44,081 nt of DNA from Polyangiaceae bacterium (lineage in GTDB: Bacteria; Myxococcota_A; Polyangia; Polyangiales; Polyangiaceae). The DNA lies in the NCBI GenBank assembly GCA_013214025.1, contig JABSRN010000023.1, forward strand, positions 1 to 44,081. The letters run 5' to 3'. Made by a program: the position numbers and the translations under genes. The notes under the pieces are model-generated. The model was given only the letters and a program-made list of their open reading frames with translations. It was not told where the DNA came from and searched no databases. Below are positions 19,249 through 34,965 of this stretch, in pieces (the stretch's first letter is position 1; the number at the start of each line of letters is the position of its first letter).

Positions 19249-20043
19249 GTGTCTTATTTTGCCGCCTATCGTCTTACTGCCACCTTCGGAATTTGCGCCG
19301 CGCTAGCCGCCTGCGGGGGAGCAGACTTCAGTCTGGCTGAATCGGACGCTGGGGTTGGCGTCACTGGTACTTCTGGTGGCGCAGGTGGCGCTTCCAACTC
19401 TGGCAATGGCGGGGCGGGGAGCGGGGGGCGACCCCCCTTCGGACAAGGCGGCCACGACACGGCTACCGCGGGAACATCGTCCACAGGCGGAACCTCATCG
19501 ACTGGTGGGACGACATCAACTGGTGGGACGACATCAACTGGTGGGACGACATCAACTGGTGGGACGACATCGACCGCCGGCACGACATCCAACGGAGGTA
19601 CGACATCTGACGGAGGTACGGACAATGTGGAACCGATCTGTCCCGACGCAGCGCCAGTCACGCTAGAGTGTCCGGACCGATGCAACTGCGAACTCGACGG
19701 CTGTCACATGACGGGCAAGGCCGATGAGCCCATCTTCGTCTGCCCTGCGGGTCGACCTTGCTGGATCCATTGCGCCGGCGAGCAAGCTTGCAGGGACGCC
19801 GATGTGGTTTGCGCGCCCGGACAAGATTGCACGGTACTGTGCGCCGGAGCCCAGGCGTGTCGGCTCATGACAGTCAACTGCAACGGAGCGCTGAGCTGCA
19901 ATGTAGAATGTGATGCGTCGAGCGATTCCTGTGAAGACACCGCGCTGCAATGCGCGGCGACGAACTGCGCGGCGAGTTGCGCGGGGGAGTCCCAGCCACT
20001 GCTCCAATGCGATAGAACGACCTGTAGTTGCACAGGCTGCTAG
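19249..20043 (+). CDS. Cys-rich lipoprotein with Thr/Ser/Gly repeat linker
   Basis: A 264-aa predicted lipoprotein. The signal peptide ends in a lipobox (CAALAAC, Cys about residue 22). A long low-complexity linker follows, including four perfect copies of an 18-nt unit encoding GTTSTG (about 19500-19572). The mature C-terminal ~130 residues carry more than 20 Cys, with repeated CAGxQACRxAxVxC blocks (CAGEQACRDADVVCAPGQDC; CAGAQACRLMTVNCNG), a disulfide-bonded repeat found in predicted surface proteins of Myxococcota. The start GTG 19249 lacks a clear Shine-Dalgarno. The nucleotide repeat could change linker length by slippage. Function unknown: surface display is inferred. Confidence 0.75.
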   Translation: MSYFAAYRLTATFGICAALAACGGADFSLAESDAGVGVTGTSGGAGGASNSGNGGAGSGGRPPFGQGGHDTATAGTSSTGGTSSTGGTTSTGGTTSTGGTTSTGGTTSTAGTTSNGGTTSDGGTDNVEPICPDAAPVTLECPDRCNCELDGCHMTGKADEPIFVCPAGRPCWIHCAGEQACRDADVVCAPGQDCTVLCAGAQACRLMTVNCNGALSCNVECDASSDSCEDTALQCAATNCAASCAGESQPLLQCDRTTCSCTGC

Positions 20044-20370
20044 GCGCTAACATCGAGCACGCCCCGCGCATTGCCGTCTCGCCCGCGCATTGCCGTCTTC
20101 TCTTTGAGCTGATGGCCGGGCCCGTAGCCTGGTCCGCTGAATGGCAGACTGATCTCGAGATGGGTTCGAACTGGCGACAGCAGCATCCTTATCCGCCTCG
20201 CCCGTGGCGCTGTTCAGACGCCGTGTAGACAAAATACTGAACACATTCCGGCGGGAAATGGGGAGCCGCGCTTCAGCCATGGCTGGCGGCGATTCCGCCC
20301 TCGACTAGAGACCTCAATCCGAGGCAGTCTCCGCGGGCGACCCGCCGCGGGCGACCCGCCGCCTTTGCCT
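20044..20370. other. Intergenic spacer with two tandem duplications
   Basis: About 325 bp with no gene seen. It holds two copies of CCCGCGCATTGCCGTCT (20063-20079 and 20082-20098, 2-bp spacer) and two copies of CCGCGGGCGACCCG (20331-20344 and 20345-20358) just before the next start codon. The latter may affect translation start of the fusion gene. Confidence 0.75.
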
Positions 20371-22581
20371 ATGACTGACCCGGCCCCCAGCGTACAGCTG
20401 TCCCTGCTGGTGCCTTGTTTCAACGAGGCGCAGAATTTGCCGGAATTTACGAGTCGCGCCCTCAACGCTCTCGAAGCTTTGGGCGTTCCAGCGGAGGTGG
20501 TGCTGGTGGACGACGGATCCTCCGACAACACCGCCTCCGTCATTCGAAGCCTGATGGCAGCCTCTCCTGATTTGGTTTTGGGCGGCTTCCACACGAAGAA
20601 CCAGGGCATCGCGACGGCATGGCAAACGGCGCTGTCTGCGTCTCGGGGTCAGGTGGTCGTGAGCATCGATGCGGATCTCCAATACCAACCCGAAGACGTA
20701 TTGCGCCTATATCGAAAATTGCTCGATTCGAGCGTCGACATCGTTCAGGGCTGGAGAAGCTCCGCGGGGCGGGAGAAGGGGCCCCGGTATCACTTGAGCC
20801 GGACGTTCAACAGCTTGTTGAATGCTACGTTCGGGATGTCCCTGCGAGACAACAAGAGCGGGTTTGTTTGTTGCAGTCGCGAGGTGTTTGCAGACTTGCT
20901 CACCTACAGCCACGACTACCACTACTGGCAGAGCTTTATCATGGTGGCGGCGCACTCCAAGGGTTACAGCTACCAGGAGGCCGAGACCATCTTCGAGCCG
21001 CGGCGTCAGGGGCTCTCGTTTCTGGAGGGCTCGACCGTATCGGCTTCTGCGAAGAGCTTGGTTGACGTGGCCAGGGCGAGCGTCGAATACAAATTTCGCA
21101 ACAGCCCAGGGGATCTAAGTGAGCAGTTCTTGCGGAAACAGTCGGCACTGACGGAGAGGCGCGCGCCTTCGCCACTCGCCCACCCGGCGCGATGGCGCGC
21201 TTACATGGCGAGTTTTGAGCAGACCCACTGGATGATTACCCGAGGGGTCGAGCATCGATACGAGTTGCTCAACCGTACTCAGTGGCTGGCAGGCTCTCAA
21301 CTGCGCGATCTCCAGGACGAGAAGCTACGGCGCTTGATCCGGCACGCATATCGCAACGTGCCCTACTACCGACGTCGGATGCAGATGGCGAAGCTGGGAC
21401 CCGAAGACATTCGGACCCAAGCCGATTTATACAAGCTGCCGTATTTGTCCAAGAACGAAGTGCGTGCCAACCTTCACCTCGGAATCACTGCCGAGAATGT
21501 AGGCAAGGCCGAGATGCAACGCATCGTGACATCCGGCTCCACCGGCGAGCCGTTGGTGTGTTTCGCCGATCGCCGCCAGCTGGAGTTTCGATGGGCTGCG
21601 ACACTCCGCGCGCAAGAATGGACCGGCTACCGCTTCGGAGATCCCTGTGTTCGCCTCTGGCATCAAGCTATTGGGCTGAACCGAAGCCAAGCGCTTAAGC
21701 AACGGCTCGATGCCATCGCGTCGAATCGCACCTTCGTGCCTATGTACGAATTCTCCGAGGGCGGGGTGGCGGATATGGTGCGAACTATGGAGGACGCGGA
21801 GCCGGTGCTCATTGACGGCTATGCCGAAGCGCTAGATTTTCTAGCGCGTTACCTGGAGCGCACCGGCGGCACCCTCGCCGTGAGTCCTGGCGCTGTGATG
21901 TCGAGTGCACAAACATTGCCGGCGGCGAGTCGACGCATTATCGAAGATCGATTTGCTTGCCGGGTCTACGACAAATACGGCAGTCGCGAGTTCAGCGGCA
22001 TCGCTTATGAGTGTGAAACCCATGCGGGGCTTCATACGGTTGCTGAATCCTATATCGTGGAGATCCTCGTCGGAGATCGGCCGGCTCGCCCCGGAGAAAC
22101 CGGAGAGGTCGTGATCACAGATCTCAACAACTTTGGCATGCCATTCATTCGCTATCGCATCGGCGATCTGGCCACCGCTCTCGACGCTTCTCCCTGTGCC
22201 TGCGGCCGCGGAGCCCCTCGTATTGGGAGCATCCAGGGCCGAGTGCAATCGATGATCGCGGGTACGGACGCCCGATATGTGCCCGGGACCTTCTTTGCTC
22301 ATGCCCTTAAAGAGTTTGACTATGCGATCCGGCGATTTGTCGTGGTGCAGGACACGCCAGGGGAGATCCAGCTGAAGATAGTCAAGGCGGGGCGTTTCTC
22401 TTCGGGGGCGCTGGACGAGGCGCTGAGTCTGATTCGGAAGTATCTTGGCGACGATCTGAAGATCAGAGTCCACTTCATCGAAAGCGTTGAACTCACGGCA
22501 ACCGGCAAACACATGGCCGTTGTGTCGAAGTTGCCTGTCGATTTTCAAAAAGTCGGTTCGGCTGTTGTGTCGGCTTTCTGA
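20371..22581 (+). CDS. GT2 glycosyltransferase fused to CapK/PaaK-like ligase
   Basis: A 736-aa two-domain protein. Residues about 8-235 are a GT-A family 2 glycosyltransferase, dolichol-phosphate-mannose-synthase-like: LLVPCFNEAQN, VVLVDDGSSDNTA and SIDADLQYQ (DxD metal site). Residues about 300-735 form a CapK/PaaK-like adenylate-forming domain: LRRLIRHAYRNVPYYRRRM, an ATP-loop VTSGSTGEP near 388, DKYGSREFSGI, RYRIGD and a C-terminal lid region. CapK-type proteins occur in capsule or polysaccharide clusters, and the family activates carboxylates as adenylates. A fused pair could couple sugar transfer to acyl or amino-acyl decoration, which is inference. ATG 20371 is preferred to TTG 20365. 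The 3' end overlaps the convergent epimerase gene by 37 bp. The gene appears intact. Confidence 0.82.
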   Translation: MTDPAPSVQLSLLVPCFNEAQNLPEFTSRALNALEALGVPAEVVLVDDGSSDNTASVIRSLMAASPDLVLGGFHTKNQGIATAWQTALSASRGQVVVSIDADLQYQPEDVLRLYRKLLDSSVDIVQGWRSSAGREKGPRYHLSRTFNSLLNATFGMSLRDNKSGFVCCSREVFADLLTYSHDYHYWQSFIMVAAHSKGYSYQEAETIFEPRRQGLSFLEGSTVSASAKSLVDVARASVEYKFRNSPGDLSEQFLRKQSALTERRAPSPLAHPARWRAYMASFEQTHWMITRGVEHRYELLNRTQWLAGSQLRDLQDEKLRRLIRHAYRNVPYYRRRMQMAKLGPEDIRTQADLYKLPYLSKNEVRANLHLGITAENVGKAEMQRIVTSGSTGEPLVCFADRRQLEFRWAATLRAQEWTGYRFGDPCVRLWHQAIGLNRSQALKQRLDAIASNRTFVPMYEFSEGGVADMVRTMEDAEPVLIDGYAEALDFLARYLERTGGTLAVSPGAVMSSAQTLPAASRRIIEDRFACRVYDKYGSREFSGIAYECETHAGLHTVAESYIVEILVGDRPARPGETGEVVITDLNNFGMPFIRYRIGDLATALDASPCACGRGAPRIGSIQGRVQSMIAGTDARYVPGTFFAHALKEFDYAIRRFVVVQDTPGEIQLKIVKAGRFSSGALDEALSLIRKYLGDDLKIRVHFIESVELTATGKHMAVVSKLPVDFQKVGSAVVSAF

Positions 22582-23516
22582 CGCCACTGGCACCACTCGA
22601 CAGAACGCTGAAGTCCCTCTGCCAAACTGACGGTAGAACGCGTGCCCAAGATGTCGTGTTGGCGCTGCACCCGCCCGACGCGTACCGTTCCTGCGGTTTC
22701 GTCCGCGGCCTCGAACTCGGGTGTGCAAGATTTTTCGAGACAGCGAGAGAGTTCCGCGACAACGTCGAGGACGGACACACCAACGCCCGAGCCGATGTTC
22801 ACGACGCCGCTCGGGATGGGGCGAGCGAGAGCTTGCACTGTCGCGTCTGCCGCGTCCCCGACGTAGAGGTAGTCGAAGACTTGCTGACCATCGCCGAATA
22901 CGACAGGGGGCTGCCCTTTGAGCAGCCGACGGATCGTCCGTGGCACCAGCGAGTTAGCATAGTTGTGTTGGTACAGCCGCGGCCCGTACACGAAGAAGTA
23001 ACGCAAGGAGGTGCCCGTGATGCCCGCCGTGGACGTCATGGAGCGCAATAGGTGTTCGCCGGCGATCTTGGTTGCGCCGTACAAGCTGCGGGCGAGCAGG
23101 GGGGATTCTTCCAAGTAGGGGCCTGGCAGATCGGTCCCGTAGACGTATAGGGAGGACGCTGCGACGACGTGTTGGACTCCGCCGGCGATCGCGGCGGCGA
23201 GAACCTGGTAGGTCCCGTTGATATTTGTCTCCACAAGTCGGGCAGGGTCCGAAGAGGCGTTGTGTTTGGTAGCAGCTAGGTGCAGTAGCCGGTTGCAGCC
23301 GGCTAACACGCTGAGAGCTTGGGCATCGCGCACGTCCGCATCAATGATGCGGAGTCGCGGGTCCCCCGCAACGGATGCCAGATTGGAGCGGTCGCTGCAG
23401 ACACCGTTGTCGATGACGCGAATCTCCGCGGCTGCGGTAGAGAGCAAGCGTTCAACGACATGACTGCCGATGAAACCCGCGCCTCCAGTAATGGCAATAC
23501 ATTCTCCTTCGAACAT
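22545..23516 (-). CDS. NAD-dependent nucleotide-sugar epimerase/dehydratase
   Basis: A 323-aa extended short-chain dehydrogenase of the GalE/RmlB type. The Rossmann glycine motif is TGGAGFIGS at about 10-18, the catalytic YxxxK is YGATK around residue 146, with a preceding ASSLYVYG strand holding the catalytic Ser. DYLYVGDAA and NIGSG are typical of UDP-sugar 4-epimerases. It probably makes a precursor for the glycosyltransferase encoded convergently next door, with which it shares 37 bp at the 3' ends. Start ATG 23516. The exact sugar substrate is not determined by visible motifs. Confidence 0.85.
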   Translation of the reverse strand: MFEGECIAITGGAGFIGSHVVERLLSTAAAEIRVIDNGVCSDRSNLASVAGDPRLRIIDADVRDAQALSVLAGCNRLLHLAATKHNASSDPARLVETNINGTYQVLAAAIAGGVQHVVAASSLYVYGTDLPGPYLEESPLLARSLYGATKIAGEHLLRSMTSTAGITGTSLRYFFVYGPRLYQHNYANSLVPRTIRRLLKGQPPVVFGDGQQVFDYLYVGDAADATVQALARPIPSGVVNIGSGVGVSVLDVVAELSRCLEKSCTPEFEAADETAGTVRVGRVQRQHDILGTRSTVSLAEGLQRSVEWCQWRQKADTTAEPTF

Positions 23517-26235: not shown

Positions 26236-27972
26236 TCAGTCCTTCGGAACGGTTGCGGGCCGCAGCAAGCGCATCGCGATCAGCAGCGAGAGCAAGCTGA
26301 TCAGCGCACCGAACACCAGCGCCACGGGGCGAAATTCGAAGGTGAGCCGGGGGGCATCCGGCGTCACGTTCATTCCGATGAGGCCCATCGGGGTCACCAG
26401 GGGACGACCGTCATGGCTTTGCCAGCTAGGGTGATAATTCATGTTCCACACGAGCAGTCCGGGGCTCGCCAAACCGACAGCTTCGATAGTTACGCTCGAC
26501 GGGGTCCATTGCACGATGCGCGCCTTGGCTGCAGGAGCTCCGTCAGGTACAGCCACCGCCACCTCACCCGCTTGCGGCCAAAGCTGCCGCGCAAACAATC
26601 GCGGAGCGGCAGGGTCGTAGCAATGTAGGTCGCCGCGATTGGCGAGGACGTCCAGTGTGCTGCTAGCCCGGTGCTCGCGGCTCATGGATTCCCGGTGACC
26701 AAGGTATGCTCGTTGGGTGAAGGGCTGTCGGAGCACGTCGCTGGCGGCACCGAGCGCGCCATCCTGCTGAGTGAAAGCCCCGCTCAGGATCGGGAATTGC
26801 AGCCACAGTAGGTTGCCGGCAATCAGTACCAGAGTTGGCAGCGCCCAGCGCCCGAGCTTGTCGAAACCAAGTGAGGCGGCGATCCCCCAGCAGATGGTCA
26901 TGTACAGGAACATCCGCGAGCAGACGCGGATCTTCGAAAACACCGGCAACTGGTGGAGTGCCGTCCAAGGATTGACCAGGCCTGTGTCGCCCAGGCCTGT
27001 CCAGAGGAATAGGAAGCCGAGAACAAGCCAGGGTAGGGCCTGCCGTTTCGCGATGCCCGCACCCGCGGCAAGAGCCGCCAGCAATACAGGGCCCAAGTAC
27101 GTGCCGTATTCGTGCCACCACCAAATCTGGCCGGCAAATCGTGTTCGTCCACCGCTGTTCTGGTTGGGGGCCAAAAATATATCAAACAGCGCAGAAGGGG
27201 GGATGGCTTCGGCGGGCAGAGCTCCTCGATTGAGTCCGGCGAGCAGTAAACCGGCAGGGAGCAGCAGAATGGCACTGAGCCCGACCGCCAACAACACGGT
27301 GCCCGCTGCCACCTGTAGCGGACGTGCTTGGCGGCTTCGGACGCTCTCGTAGACGACCCAGCTTCCGACTAAGAGCGAACCAAGAACGAATACTTGTAGT
27401 CCCCCTTCAAGCAGGATGACGGCGGACCAGAGCGCTGCGCTGACCCAACCGCGATTTCCGTGCGTCAACGATTGATTCATCCCGAGGAACACCCACGGCA
27501 GCAATACGACCGTCACGAGCCCGAGGTGTCCGGCCGCCACGTGCAGGGCGACGCTGCCGTTGCAGCAGACCGTGAGGGCGCAGAGCCAAGTTCCCCAGCG
27601 TCCCGCTCCAACTGAAGCGGCGAAGCGTCGAGAACCTTCTATGCCCAGCGCCAGGATCACGATCCACCAGATCCGGTTTCCCAAGAAGGGGCCGAACAGC
27701 ATGGTGAAACCGAAGCTGGGGGCGAACACCCGGGCCTGAAAGCTATCGATGAGAGACGCTCCACCGCAGTGATAAGGGTTCCATAGCGGAAGCTGCCCGT
27801 AGTCAAATACCGCGTGGTGAGCCGCCGTTGCCTGGGCGGTGAAGAAGTCCCAGTCACCGGCGCCTAGACAACTCGGGCAGGACAGCACGCCGATGCCGAA
27901 TAGCAGTGACAGAACTATGGACGGAGCCCAGCGCTGTGTGAGTGCAAGAACTGGCTGGAGTCGGCTGTCCAC
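26236..27972 (-). CDS. YfhO-like polytopic membrane protein
   Basis: A 578-aa protein with about 11 hydrophobic segments. The pattern LPLWNPYHCGG after the first TM helix is the hallmark of the YfhO/GT-C-like group, as is the C-terminal soluble beta domain with LLVWNMNYHPSWQ and DGRPLVTPMGLIGMNV before the last TM helix. An Asp near the start of the first periplasmic loop (GDWDFF) could be catalytic, as in GT-C enzymes. In Gram-positive relatives YfhO modifies wall polymers with a lipid-linked sugar. Here a role in envelope glycosylation fits the neighbouring glycosyltransferase and epimerase genes. Start ATG 27972. It is convergent with the exporter gene (8 bp between stops). Confidence 0.75.
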   Translation of the reverse strand: MDSRLQPVLALTQRWAPSIVLSLLFGIGVLSCPSCLGAGDWDFFTAQATAAHHAVFDYGQLPLWNPYHCGGASLIDSFQARVFAPSFGFTMLFGPFLGNRIWWIVILALGIEGSRRFAASVGAGRWGTWLCALTVCCNGSVALHVAAGHLGLVTVVLLPWVFLGMNQSLTHGNRGWVSAALWSAVILLEGGLQVFVLGSLLVGSWVVYESVRSRQARPLQVAAGTVLLAVGLSAILLLPAGLLLAGLNRGALPAEAIPPSALFDIFLAPNQNSGGRTRFAGQIWWWHEYGTYLGPVLLAALAAGAGIAKRQALPWLVLGFLFLWTGLGDTGLVNPWTALHQLPVFSKIRVCSRMFLYMTICWGIAASLGFDKLGRWALPTLVLIAGNLLWLQFPILSGAFTQQDGALGAASDVLRQPFTQRAYLGHRESMSREHRASSTLDVLANRGDLHCYDPAAPRLFARQLWPQAGEVAVAVPDGAPAAKARIVQWTPSSVTIEAVGLASPGLLVWNMNYHPSWQSHDGRPLVTPMGLIGMNVTPDAPRLTFEFRPVALVFGALISLLSLLIAMRLLRPATVPKD

Positions 27973-30904: not shown

Positions 30905-31487
30905 CGACCTAGCGGGAAAGGGCGGAGGAGTGGATGTTCCGAGTGTTGTCACTCGGCCTCGCCTTAGCACGCTCAGGCCGCCGTGACCGGCGCCAAGATT
31001 TGGAGCATTGTTTAGAATGGCGAGCGGCGGAGAATAGTCCACCACGTCGTCGCCGCCGGAGGGTGCGACGTGAAATTGGCTCGCCTTCTGTCGGACAGTT
31101 CCACAGTTGTGTCGGAGATCGCGAGCGAGTTGTTGTTGGGTAGCTCCACAATAGATGGGGGAAATGAAATCGCATATCGGGTTTTCTGGGGAGAGCTGCA
31201 ACGCCGCAAGCGCTCCCGCGCGATCTTGCGCAGAGAGGCGCGGCCCCGCCTTGCTGAATCGAGGGCGACGGCGGTATCGCGAGGGCCCGCGGTATCGCCG
31301 GTCGCATGCCTTCGCGGACGGCGGGTATCTAGAGGATGGATGGGCCGGAGCGGTTCGGGCAGGTGCCCCGGTCTGAGCAACCGTCAACGGGCGCGGCTGA
31401 GGAGCCTGGAGTCGATCAATACACTGACTGGCTAGACTCCTTTGCCCCTTGCGCCGAGCACGGTGGGCGCTGCTATACTCGGTTCTG
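30905..31487. other. Intergenic region, 580 bp
   Basis: Lies between two divergent genes. The minus frame of the lipoprotein is open through most of it, but the predicted peptide is Arg/Pro-rich with no domain. A TATACT hexamer at 31474-31479 sits only eight bases before ATG 31488; without a matching -35 box I do not call it a promoter. No repeats seen. Confidence 0.4.
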
Positions 31488-32954
31488 ATGAGCGAAAGTC
31501 TCCGCCCTCCGGGCGCGCCGAAGCGGATTGCGATTTTAATAGTCGCCTACAATGCAGCCTCCACTCTCCGTCAAGTGCTCGATCGGATCCCAGAATCGGT
31601 GTGGGAGGAAACAGCTGAGGTGATCGTCTTCGACGACGAAAGTACCGATGATACCTACTTGGTCGGGCTGGGCTACAAGGCTTTGCACGGTAAGAGTAAG
31701 CTGAGCGTATTTCGGAATGAACGAAACCAGGGATACGGCGGAAACCAAATGCTCGGTTATCGCTACGCCATCGACAAGGGTTACGATGCGGTCGCGTTGA
31801 TCCACGGCGACGGGCAATACGCTCCTGAAGAATTGCCGAAAATGTTGGCGCCCATCCTGAGCGGAGAGGCCGATGCAGTGTTCGGATCCCGCATGATGAC
31901 GGCGGGCGCGGCCTTGGAAGGAGGCATGCCTCGCTACAAGTATGTCGGCAATCGCATCCTCAGCGCATTTGAGAATAGCCTACTGGGCACCAAATTGAGC
32001 GAATTTCACTCGGGTTACCGTGTCTACTCCTGCGCCGCTCTCAGCCGGGTTCCCTTCGAGCTGAACACAAAAGACTTTCACTTTGACACGCAGATCATCA
32101 TTCAGATGTCGGCCGCTGGCATGCGTATCGTCGAGTTACCGATCCCCACCTACTACGGCGATGAGATATGCCACGTAGACGGCATTCGTTACGCCAAAGA
32201 CGTGGTAAAATCGGTCTTGCAGTTCAAGTTACATAGCTTCGGAATTCGTCGGGCTGCCGAATACGAGGTTCGCCCGCGCTACAGCATCAAGAAGAGCTTA
32301 CTGTCATCCCACGCGCAGTTGTTGAGCATGGTAGGCTCTGCCCGCTACGACATCCTTGACGCGGGTTGTGGCAGCGGTGAATTAGCGTCGCTGTTGCAAG
32401 ATCGTGGCCACAGAGTCACGGGGATGGACGCCCGCCCCCCGCAGACCCAGCTCGAAAAGTTCATCCAAACGGACCTGAGCTCGGGGCTCAAGCTCGAAGC
32501 CGACCAACGCTTCGACGTTATCCTGTTCGCCGATGTTCTTGAACACTTGCCGGATTCGGCGTTGCTGCTCCGGCAGGCGCGTGATCACTTGAAGCCTGGT
32601 GGTCGGATCTTGGTGTCCTTACCGAACGTCGCCCATTGGTCGATCCGCGCACAACTGGCCGCCGGGCGCTTCGAGTACGCCGATCAGGGTATCTTGGACC
32701 GAGGTCACTTGCGCTTCTTCACCGATCGAAGCGCTCGTCAGTTATTCGCGGAATGCGAGCTAGTGGTGCGGGATTGCTCCGTGACGCCGGTGCCCTGGGA
32801 GAAGGTGACCGACAACGCTGTGTTGCACGATGCCCTCGAGAAAGTCGATCACGGCCTGGGGCAGCTGAGTCCGAATCTGTTTGCCTACCAGCACCTGTTC
32901 ATGCTGGTCCCCGATCCGGAAGCCGATCGGGAGCCTCGCGTTGAGTCTAGCTAA
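31488..32954 (+). CDS. GT2 glycosyltransferase-SAM methyltransferase fusion
   Basis: A 488-aa bifunctional protein. Residues about 15-240 form a family 2 glycosyltransferase (IAILIVAYNAAST, EVIVFDDESTDDT, ALIHGDGQYAPEEL as DxD-like site, FGSRMM, FHSGYRVYS). Residues about 285-470 form a class I methyltransferase (YDILDAGCGSGELASLL as motif I, FDVILFADVLEHLPD, LKPGGRILVSLPNVAHW). This domain order is a known architecture in cell-surface polysaccharide clusters, where the second domain can methylate or cap the glycan. It is cytoplasmic, possibly membrane-associated. ATG 31488 is preferred to the upstream in-frame start at 31449, which adds a poor N-terminal extension. Intact. Confidence 0.85.
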   Translation: MSESLRPPGAPKRIAILIVAYNAASTLRQVLDRIPESVWEETAEVIVFDDESTDDTYLVGLGYKALHGKSKLSVFRNERNQGYGGNQMLGYRYAIDKGYDAVALIHGDGQYAPEELPKMLAPILSGEADAVFGSRMMTAGAALEGGMPRYKYVGNRILSAFENSLLGTKLSEFHSGYRVYSCAALSRVPFELNTKDFHFDTQIIIQMSAAGMRIVELPIPTYYGDEICHVDGIRYAKDVVKSVLQFKLHSFGIRRAAEYEVRPRYSIKKSLLSSHAQLLSMVGSARYDILDAGCGSGELASLLQDRGHRVTGMDARPPQTQLEKFIQTDLSSGLKLEADQRFDVILFADVLEHLPDSALLLRQARDHLKPGGRILVSLPNVAHWSIRAQLAAGRFEYADQGILDRGHLRFFTDRSARQLFAECELVVRDCSVTPVPWEKVTDNAVLHDALEKVDHGLGQLSPNLFAYQHLFMLVPDPEADREPRVESS

Positions 32955-33056: not shown

Positions 33057-34646
33057 CTAGGGCTCAATGCTCTGGGTAGGGAAGTGCTTGGCGAATTGCT
33101 CGCGTCCTTTCGGGTAGTTCGGGAATCGATTGAGCAGCGACCGGTAAAATGCGCGGGACGCTTGATACTGTCCGCGCCGTGCCATGACATCCGCCAAGTT
33201 GAAGGCAACTTTCGGATCTTGGGGCCAGAGGGTAACCGCCTGAGCGAGCACCGATTGTGCGGAAGCGTGATCGCCGGCGCGAACATAGAGCCGAGCCATG
33301 TTGTTCATTGATCGGCGCGCAATTTCGGACTGTTGCGGAGCGCGTTTGATGGCCGCTGAGTAGGCATTCACGGCGGCGGCTTCGTCACCGCGATTCTCCA
33401 TCTGTTTGGCGATTTGATAGGGCGGGATGGGGGAACCGGGGGCTGCTTGCGCGGCGTCGACGAATAGGGCGAGGGAGTCGGAGAACAGGGAGGCCCGAGT
33501 CGCCGTGAGCCCCCCGAGAGATACCAAAATAGCCGCCGCGACCAGGAGCCGCGCGCGACCGAGGGAGCGCAGCACCGCTGCCGTGCCGAGTCCGAGTCCG
33601 AGGACTGTAAAGTACAGATAGCGATCCGCCATGGTGTTTTGCAGCGGGAAAAACACTTGGCTGACCGGCAACAACGGCAGCCAAAAGAAGACGCTGGCAG
33701 CGAGCGGTAGCGACTGCTGGTACTTGAAGTAGGCTACCGTGGCGCCCAGCAGGCTCGCCCCGCACACAAGCCAACCCAGCACTGCGGTGGCCGAGAAGCT
33801 GGTGAGTGGCTGCACGTCGTACACGATGGACAAATCGAAGGGGAACAAGAGCTGTCCGAAGTAGCGGACCCATACTTCGCCCATGGTGATGAAGGCGGCG
33901 CTAGGGGAGCCACCGAGCGGTTCGCCCACCATGTGCACGACACCACCGATGTGATGGTGAACCGCGAAGGCCGCTAGGCCGACTCCGAGACTGACTCCGA
34001 GCACACCCCAGTGGGGTCTACGGCGGGCGAGCAGGTCGTGCATCAACAGGAGGCCACCCGCCACGACGGTCATGGCTTTGGAGAAATGCGCCAAGGCAAG
34101 TAGGCCGGGGGTGAACCAAATCAGGCGATCGCGTCGGGTGTAGCTCAACCACGCCATGGCAACGAAACAACCCGCCAGTACGTCTTTGCGGCTAGCGATC
34201 CACGCCACCGATTCGACGTGCACGGGATGCAGCGCGAACAGCAGGATCGTCAACTCCACGGTCCAGCGATCTTTCAGAGCCGCCCCCAGAGCCGCTCGCA
34301 GTAGCAATACCGTGATAACGTAAAGAACAACGTTGTTGAATCGCATCAGGCGAGGCGAGTCTCCAAACAGGCCAAATTCGAGCAGGTGACTGATGTCTCG
34401 AATTGGCAGATACTCCGCGCCCAGTGCAAATCGTGTCGCGGCGTCGAACTGTGTGAATATCGCTTGGCAGTGGGCGAGGCTAAACTCGTGAAGGATTCGG
34501 TTGTTTTGAACCAACCAATCGTCGTCGTATGCCAGATAGCCACCCCCGAAGCTCGGCAAGTAGACCAACAAGAGGAGAGCGGTGAGCCAAATGGCGGGTG
34601 CGCGGGTTCGTGCTAGCTCAACGGAATGGGGCGACGACGCGTTCAC
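33057..34646 (-). CDS. TMTC-like membrane glycosyltransferase with C-terminal TPRs
   Basis: A 529-aa membrane protein from GTG 34646. About ten hydrophobic segments form a GT-C-type core: the first luminal/periplasmic loop has YLAYDDDWLVQNN (acidic pair), then HPVHVESVAWIASRKDVLA, the strongest signature of the TMTC/DUF1736 group, and ADRYLYFTVLGLG. Residues about 400-525 are tetratricopeptide repeats (AVNAYSAAIKRAPQ, SMNNMARLYVRAGDHASAQS, ...FNLADVMARRGQYQAS). In animals TMTC proteins are O-mannosyltransferases; bacterial relatives are mostly uncharacterised. The start lies five bases from the hspQ stop, so the two are an operon. The frame is open 53 codons further up inside hspQ, but that part looks antisense-like. 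Confidence 0.8.
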   Translation of the reverse strand: MNASSPHSVELARTRAPAIWLTALLLLVYLPSFGGGYLAYDDDWLVQNNRILHEFSLAHCQAIFTQFDAATRFALGAEYLPIRDISHLLEFGLFGDSPRLMRFNNVVLYVITVLLLRAALGAALKDRWTVELTILLFALHPVHVESVAWIASRKDVLAGCFVAMAWLSYTRRDRLIWFTPGLLALAHFSKAMTVVAGGLLLMHDLLARRRPHWGVLGVSLGVGLAAFAVHHHIGGVVHMVGEPLGGSPSAAFITMGEVWVRYFGQLLFPFDLSIVYDVQPLTSFSATAVLGWLVCGASLLGATVAYFKYQQSLPLAASVFFWLPLLPVSQVFFPLQNTMADRYLYFTVLGLGLGTAAVLRSLGRARLLVAAAILVSLGGLTATRASLFSDSLALFVDAAQAAPGSPIPPYQIAKQMENRGDEAAAVNAYSAAIKRAPQQSEIARRSMNNMARLYVRAGDHASAQSVLAQAVTLWPQDPKVAFNLADVMARRGQYQASRAFYRSLLNRFPNYPKGREQFAKHFPTQSIEP

Positions 34647-34650
34647 GGCT

Positions 34651-34965
34651 TCAGTTGAGATCTCGAGTGCGCACGTAGTGGTCGCCCACTTTTTTGTCGA
34701 AAAACTCGTCGAGGCGAGGATGAACGATCGGTAGCCCTCCCCCAGCGCACGCAAGATGGCGCTCGGCGACGTAGGTTTCCTGGTCGGAGCTGTGCACCAG
34801 AACACGGTACCAAGGTTTGTCCTTGGGGGGCCGAGACCGCGCCACCTGCTCGTACCACTCGTCGCTCAGCCCGAAATTGAAATCGATGTCCACAACCACG
34901 CCTCGGTAGCCGAATTTCTCGTGGGTCACGATTTGACCGATCATGAATTTTGGTGAATGGGGCAC
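34651..34965 (-). CDS. hspQ: HspQ/YccV-like hemimethylated-DNA-binding family protein
   Basis: A 104-aa cytoplasmic protein of the YccV/HspQ fold: FMIGQIVTHEKFGYRGVVVDID, then WYEQVARSRPPKDKPWYRVLV, TYVAERHL and a C-terminal PIVHPRLDEFF. In Escherichia coli HspQ is a Lon substrate and specificity enhancer and was first described as binding hemimethylated DNA. The protein is of normal length with no visible lesion. ATG 34965 is the natural start. A 17-bp dyad (35047-35063) lies about 80 bp upstream and could be an operator. It sits first in a two-gene unit with the TMTC-like glycosyltransferase. Confidence 0.85.
   Translation of the reverse strand: MPHSPKFMIGQIVTHEKFGYRGVVVDIDFNFGLSDEWYEQVARSRPPKDKPWYRVLVHSSDQETYVAERHLACAGGGLPIVHPRLDEFFDKKVGDHYVRTRDLN

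Follow-up and report, generated by a model that had tools for sequence, protein, structure and literature searches.

A conserved, lineage-restricted fusion of a GT2 glycosyltransferase domain with a CapK/PaaK-like adenylate-forming domain

The analyzed stretch of DNA (the window; 44,081 nucleotides from a Polyangiaceae bacterium) encodes a GT2-CapK protein, in which one reading frame runs through a GT2 domain and then a CapK/PaaK-like domain. This protein is a real, conserved and lineage-restricted fusion, and a new combination of two known families. The fusion, its conservation, the intact motifs of both halves and their fold classes were observed. We tentatively read the protein as a cytoplasmic enzyme with two functions, soluble or peripheral, that may serve the making of a surface glycan or glycolipid.

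Integrity and distribution of the fused gene

Features were located from a list of open reading frames and their translations (Table 1). The frame of the fusion opens with a TTG at position 20365, the ATG at 20371 is the preferred start, and the stop codon ends at 22581. The first-pass annotation had placed both domains in one polypeptide, and this was borne out by a single intact frame of 736 amino acids with zero internal stops. It had also named a frame error joining two genes as the alternative. A frame error, chimera or assembly join was excluded by full-length fused homologues at 49–64% identity in related genomes, which were present in 17 genomes besides the window's own (59 genomes searched), and because homologues with both halves in frame recur across genomes of the class.

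Table 1. Positions of the fused gene, its domains and the adjoining gene in the window.
Feature	Positions	Strand	Basis
GT2-CapK fusion protein	20371–22581	+	ORF list and translation; both halves conserved in 56/317 class genomes
GT2 domain, residues about 1–245	20371–21105	+	Pfam, PDB sequence matches, fold Z, invariant columns, no transmembrane helix
CapK/PaaK-like adenylate-forming domain, residues about 275–730	21193–22560	+	NCBIfam, PDB matches, fold Z, invariant columns
NAD-dependent epimerase/dehydratase	22545–23516	−	Pfam Epimerase, E 6e-49; convergent, 37-base overlap with fusion gene

Within the window's class, the fused gene was found in 56 of 317 genomes, as a single copy in each. 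All matches cover both halves without stops, three of them being cut at one end. Families elsewhere in the order and in the class are represented among the carriers. Scanning GTDB genomes for the pattern gave nine fused loci (some on the same contigs), and each record bore the label Polyangiaceae, Polyangium, Myxococcales, Myxococcota or Deltaproteobacteria. Two samples of genomes from other phyla, 349 from the phylum of a Sphingopyxis and 251 from that of an Anaerolineaceae, yielded matches to the CapK half only and no fused copy, with few candidates scored per genome. The fusion had been described as uncommon, which agrees with its absence from these two samples but not with its standing as a conserved family in its own class. 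No description of it was found in the literature, most subscription journals lying outside the coverage of the search.

The CapK halves of the fused proteins formed one group with a support of 100 in a tree of 61 CapK sequences, and neither this tree nor the class search placed a standalone CapK within that clade. In the glycosyltransferase tree the fused rows did not form one clade, but a single-clade topology could not be rejected at p-AU 0.36, and long branches come together in this tree.

For structural comparison, an AlphaFold2 model was built from a 27-row alignment. The model has a mean pLDDT of 83.8 and a pTM of 0.76, with a weak linker near residues 245–270 and a disordered tail. Each half was compared with known folds using VIA-align; Foldseek was also run. 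When both halves were checked for active-site conservation, as the first-pass annotation had proposed, the motif positions proved invariant in 27 aligned homologues (mean column identity 72%). Note that we take from family knowledge which of these invariant positions are catalytic.

The GT2 half

Pfam Glycos_transf_2 matched residues 11–169 (E 2.8e-27). The best sequence relatives in the PDB were ArnC, DPMS and GtrB, and the modeled fold gave Z values of 25.9 to DPMS, 25.4 to ArnC and 23.9 to GtrB, compared with 18.7 to the soluble enzyme GPGS. In sequence and predicted fold, the half is closest to these polyprenyl-phosphate glycosyltransferases. Residues 1–245 have the GT-A fold, the DxD motif (D100/D102) and DADLQ..PE in common with the GT2-family enzymes DPMS (5mlz), ArnC (9bhe) and GtrB (9nyd), so that the fold and motifs expected of the polyprenyl-phosphate group are present. 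Invariant positions are D48, D100, D102, Q104, D160, S163-G164-F165, R211, G214 and S216, the last three forming an R211-x2-G-x-S segment with which the sequence of DPMS aligns. C-terminal membrane helices, as found in GtrB, ArnC and archaeal DPMS, are absent; a hydropathy scan of all 736 residues gave 0 hydrophobic segments above threshold. Enzymes of the DPM1 type lack C-terminal membrane helices. In contrast to DPMS, ArnC and GtrB, the GT2 half has no membrane helices and bears a C-terminal CapK domain, and its donor and acceptor are predicted.

The acceptor could instead be a soluble molecule or another lipid (e.g., diacylglycerol or a growing glycan), which we consider rather unlikely. 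Such an acceptor would suit a protein without a transmembrane helix, and further soluble GT-A enzymes match the fold with Z of 18–19, but the polyprenyl-phosphate enzymes match clearly better (Z 24–26) and the R..G.S segment aligns with DPMS.

Genomes G019 (50%) and G023 (46%) each encode a relative of this half that stands alone. No CapK gene was present near either within the 20 kb examined, so this glycosyltransferase reaction does not need CapK. In G019, a methyltransferase gene comes after the standalone relative.

The CapK half

NCBIfam AMP-ligase models matched this PaaK-like half at about residues 305–640 with E values from 1e-31 to 1e-41, all far below the equivalog cut-offs. The Pfam AMP-binding match was sub-threshold and a weak hint at most, so a scan with Pfam alone would miss the half. 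None of the curated PaaK-type NCBIfam cut-offs was reached: the score was 110 bits against a cut-off of 646 for phenylacetate-CoA ligase PaaK (TIGR02155). The flexirubin-type ligase FlxY (NF053551) was rejected as an assignment (116 bits against 520).

Searching PDB sequences matched solved PaaK structures (PaaK2, BT_0428 and PaaK1) with an E of 3e-26, and the modeled fold is that of PaaK in the ANL superfamily, with Z of 29–30 to BT_0428, PaaK1, PaaK2 and HCL over about 300–320 residues. The P-loop TSGSTGEP (387–394), YGSRE (536–540), YRIGD (595–599) and the TGK lysine K713 were located, which together supply the P-loop, the A5/A7/A8-type motifs and the C-terminal catalytic lysine that mark this superfamily. 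Invariant positions comprise T387-S388-G389-S390-T391-G392, Y536-G537, R539-E540, R594-Y595-R596, G598-D599, G623-R624 and T711-G712-K713.

The full adenylate-forming fold and the P-loop, YG.RE, YR.GDL and TGK motifs are common to this half, the phenylacetate-CoA ligases PaaK1 and PaaK2 (2y27, 2y4o) and BT_0428 (4rvo), at 21–29% identity. Where PaaK2 has the stretch FGYGLFTGGLG, however, the CapK half has an invariant RLWHQxxG segment, and from this replacement phenylacetate is unlikely to be its substrate.

Genomic context

The gene had been proposed to act in a surface-glycan route together with an epimerase, an RND exporter and a YfhO-like protein encoded nearby. Only the epimerase part was upheld. 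Epimerase/dehydratase-like genes are the most recurrent type of neighbor (11 of 23 loci) and make up 12 of 102 genes within 2.5 kb of the fusion gene versus 5 of 191 farther away, a contrast somewhat inflated because some of the near genes went into building the epimerase model. Six of these neighbors lie on the strand of the fusion gene, no more than 32 bases from it. The recurrence of NAD-dependent epimerase-like genes supports a sugar-related role for the fusion. The route through the RND (MMPL) exporter and YfhO-like gene was not supported: neither was found beside fusion homologues at up to 23 loci, and in the window the neighboring genes alternate in strand.

No synteny was conserved across the 23 loci. 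Methyltransferase genes recur near the fusion gene at four loci, and a DUF362-type gene lies near it in three genomes (L045:7468-8883, L047:12260-13657 and L056:2609-4057; Pfam was run on the L056 copy, with which the other two clustered). Two of these three loci also hold a methyltransferase gene there.

Other genes of the window were recorded as follows. Just upstream of the fusion, at 19249–20043 (+), is a lipoprotein-like ORF with a GGTTSTG-type repeat run and no Pfam match. Two multi-helix membrane proteins are encoded at 26236–27972 (−) and 33057–34805 (−); one is YfhO-like by eye with no Pfam match, and the other has a C-terminal TPR and resembles TMTC-type GT-C enzymes, which would use lipid-phosphate sugars. 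At 31449–32954 (+) is a second GT2 fusion, of GT2 (residues 29–199) with a SAM methyltransferase (residues 298–439), whose GT2 is 25% identical to that of GT2-CapK.

The homologous loci likewise hold no conserved acyltransferase or polysaccharide cluster. The lack of a conserved acyltransferase would fit an acyl-glycan synthase, in which the CapK half bypasses CoA and the acid of its acyl-adenylate passes directly to a sugar or lipid that the protein itself binds. Some PaaK relatives (BagE/FevW) make esters or amides without CoA, and BagE/FevW are among the weak NCBIfam matches of the CapK half; PaaK1, PaaK2 and HCL, among its best fold matches, are CoA ligases, however, and we regard direct transfer as improbable.

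A second fusion of CapK with a glycosyltransferase

Four genomes of a single genus (g14) share a CapK-GT4 fusion (L086:6463-8994, +). Genome G013 encodes a CapK from another clade with a GT4 domain behind it in the same frame, and three further genomes of its genus carry the fusion at 87–88% identity. In sister genera the two are separate adjoining genes (e.g., G018:C2:805996-807360, then 807402-808514). CapK-GT4 resembles GT2-CapK in joining CapK to a glycosyltransferase and occurs in the same bacterial family, but its CapK belongs to another clade, its glycosyltransferase to another family, and the domain order is reversed. Its restriction to one genus, with the halves adjoining in sister genera, indicates that the coupling recurs and arose twice. 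Other CapK frames (L088, L089, L090, L098 and L073) have long N-terminal extensions; these matched no Pfam domain and may be artefacts of frames that happen to stay open.

These distributions bear on whether the halves of GT2-CapK, while sharing one pathway, work on separate molecules, the fusion merely equalizing enzyme amounts. A linker of ~30 residues, with low model confidence around 245–270, would permit this, as would GT2 relatives that occur alone. We nevertheless consider it distinctly unlikely, given that the fusion is kept across several families, that the CapK half was not seen alone in its clade, and that a second such fusion arose separately.

Proposed function

In the favored reading, the protein would carry out two steps toward a surface glycan or glycolipid. 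A nucleotide-sugar would serve its N-terminal GT2 domain as donor, and the sugar would be placed on a lipid phosphate, most likely polyprenyl phosphate. The C-terminal CapK domain would convert a carboxylic acid and ATP to an acyl-adenylate, and the acyl group would then be handed to CoA, to a carrier protein, or straight onto a sugar hydroxyl or amine. The fusion would keep sugar loading beside acid activation, allowing early decoration of the lipid-linked sugar. Predicted from sequence and model are the two enzymatic activities, a lipid phosphate as acceptor, the acid, and the union of acid and sugar in one product. The reading is supported by the conserved fusion, invariant motifs, DPMS- and PaaK-like folds, the second GT-CapK fusion, the epimerase-like neighbors and the presence of a CapK gene in a Rubrivivax polysaccharide cluster (see below). 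It is weakened because the GT2 half has no membrane helices, because its fold is also that of soluble GT2 enzymes acting on other acceptors, because the standalone relatives in G019 and G023 have no CapK gene within 20 kb, because the surroundings of the gene hold neither a conserved acyltransferase nor a conserved polysaccharide cluster, and because the epimerase contrast is somewhat inflated. That the protein is a self-contained acyl-sugar synthase, which loads sugar onto a lipid carrier and, needing neither CoA nor a separate acyltransferase, ligates an ATP-activated acid to it to give a class-specific acylated lipid-linked sugar, is very unlikely.

In the literature found, what CapK-type ligases do in polysaccharide clusters appears unproven. 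A biofilm transposon screen in Rubrivivax hit a polysaccharide cluster that contains a CapK-annotated gene, RGS1_10410, beside glycosyltransferase genes (PMC3684757); it is likened to the fusion by annotation, but its CapK is a separate protein. GT2-CapK and the separately arisen CapK-GT4, in the same family, tie the CapK ligase to glycan assembly, and GT2-CapK provides one purifiable target for finding the acid and its acceptor. The fusion suggests that the cell couples the building of a surface sugar to the acid decoration of that same sugar.
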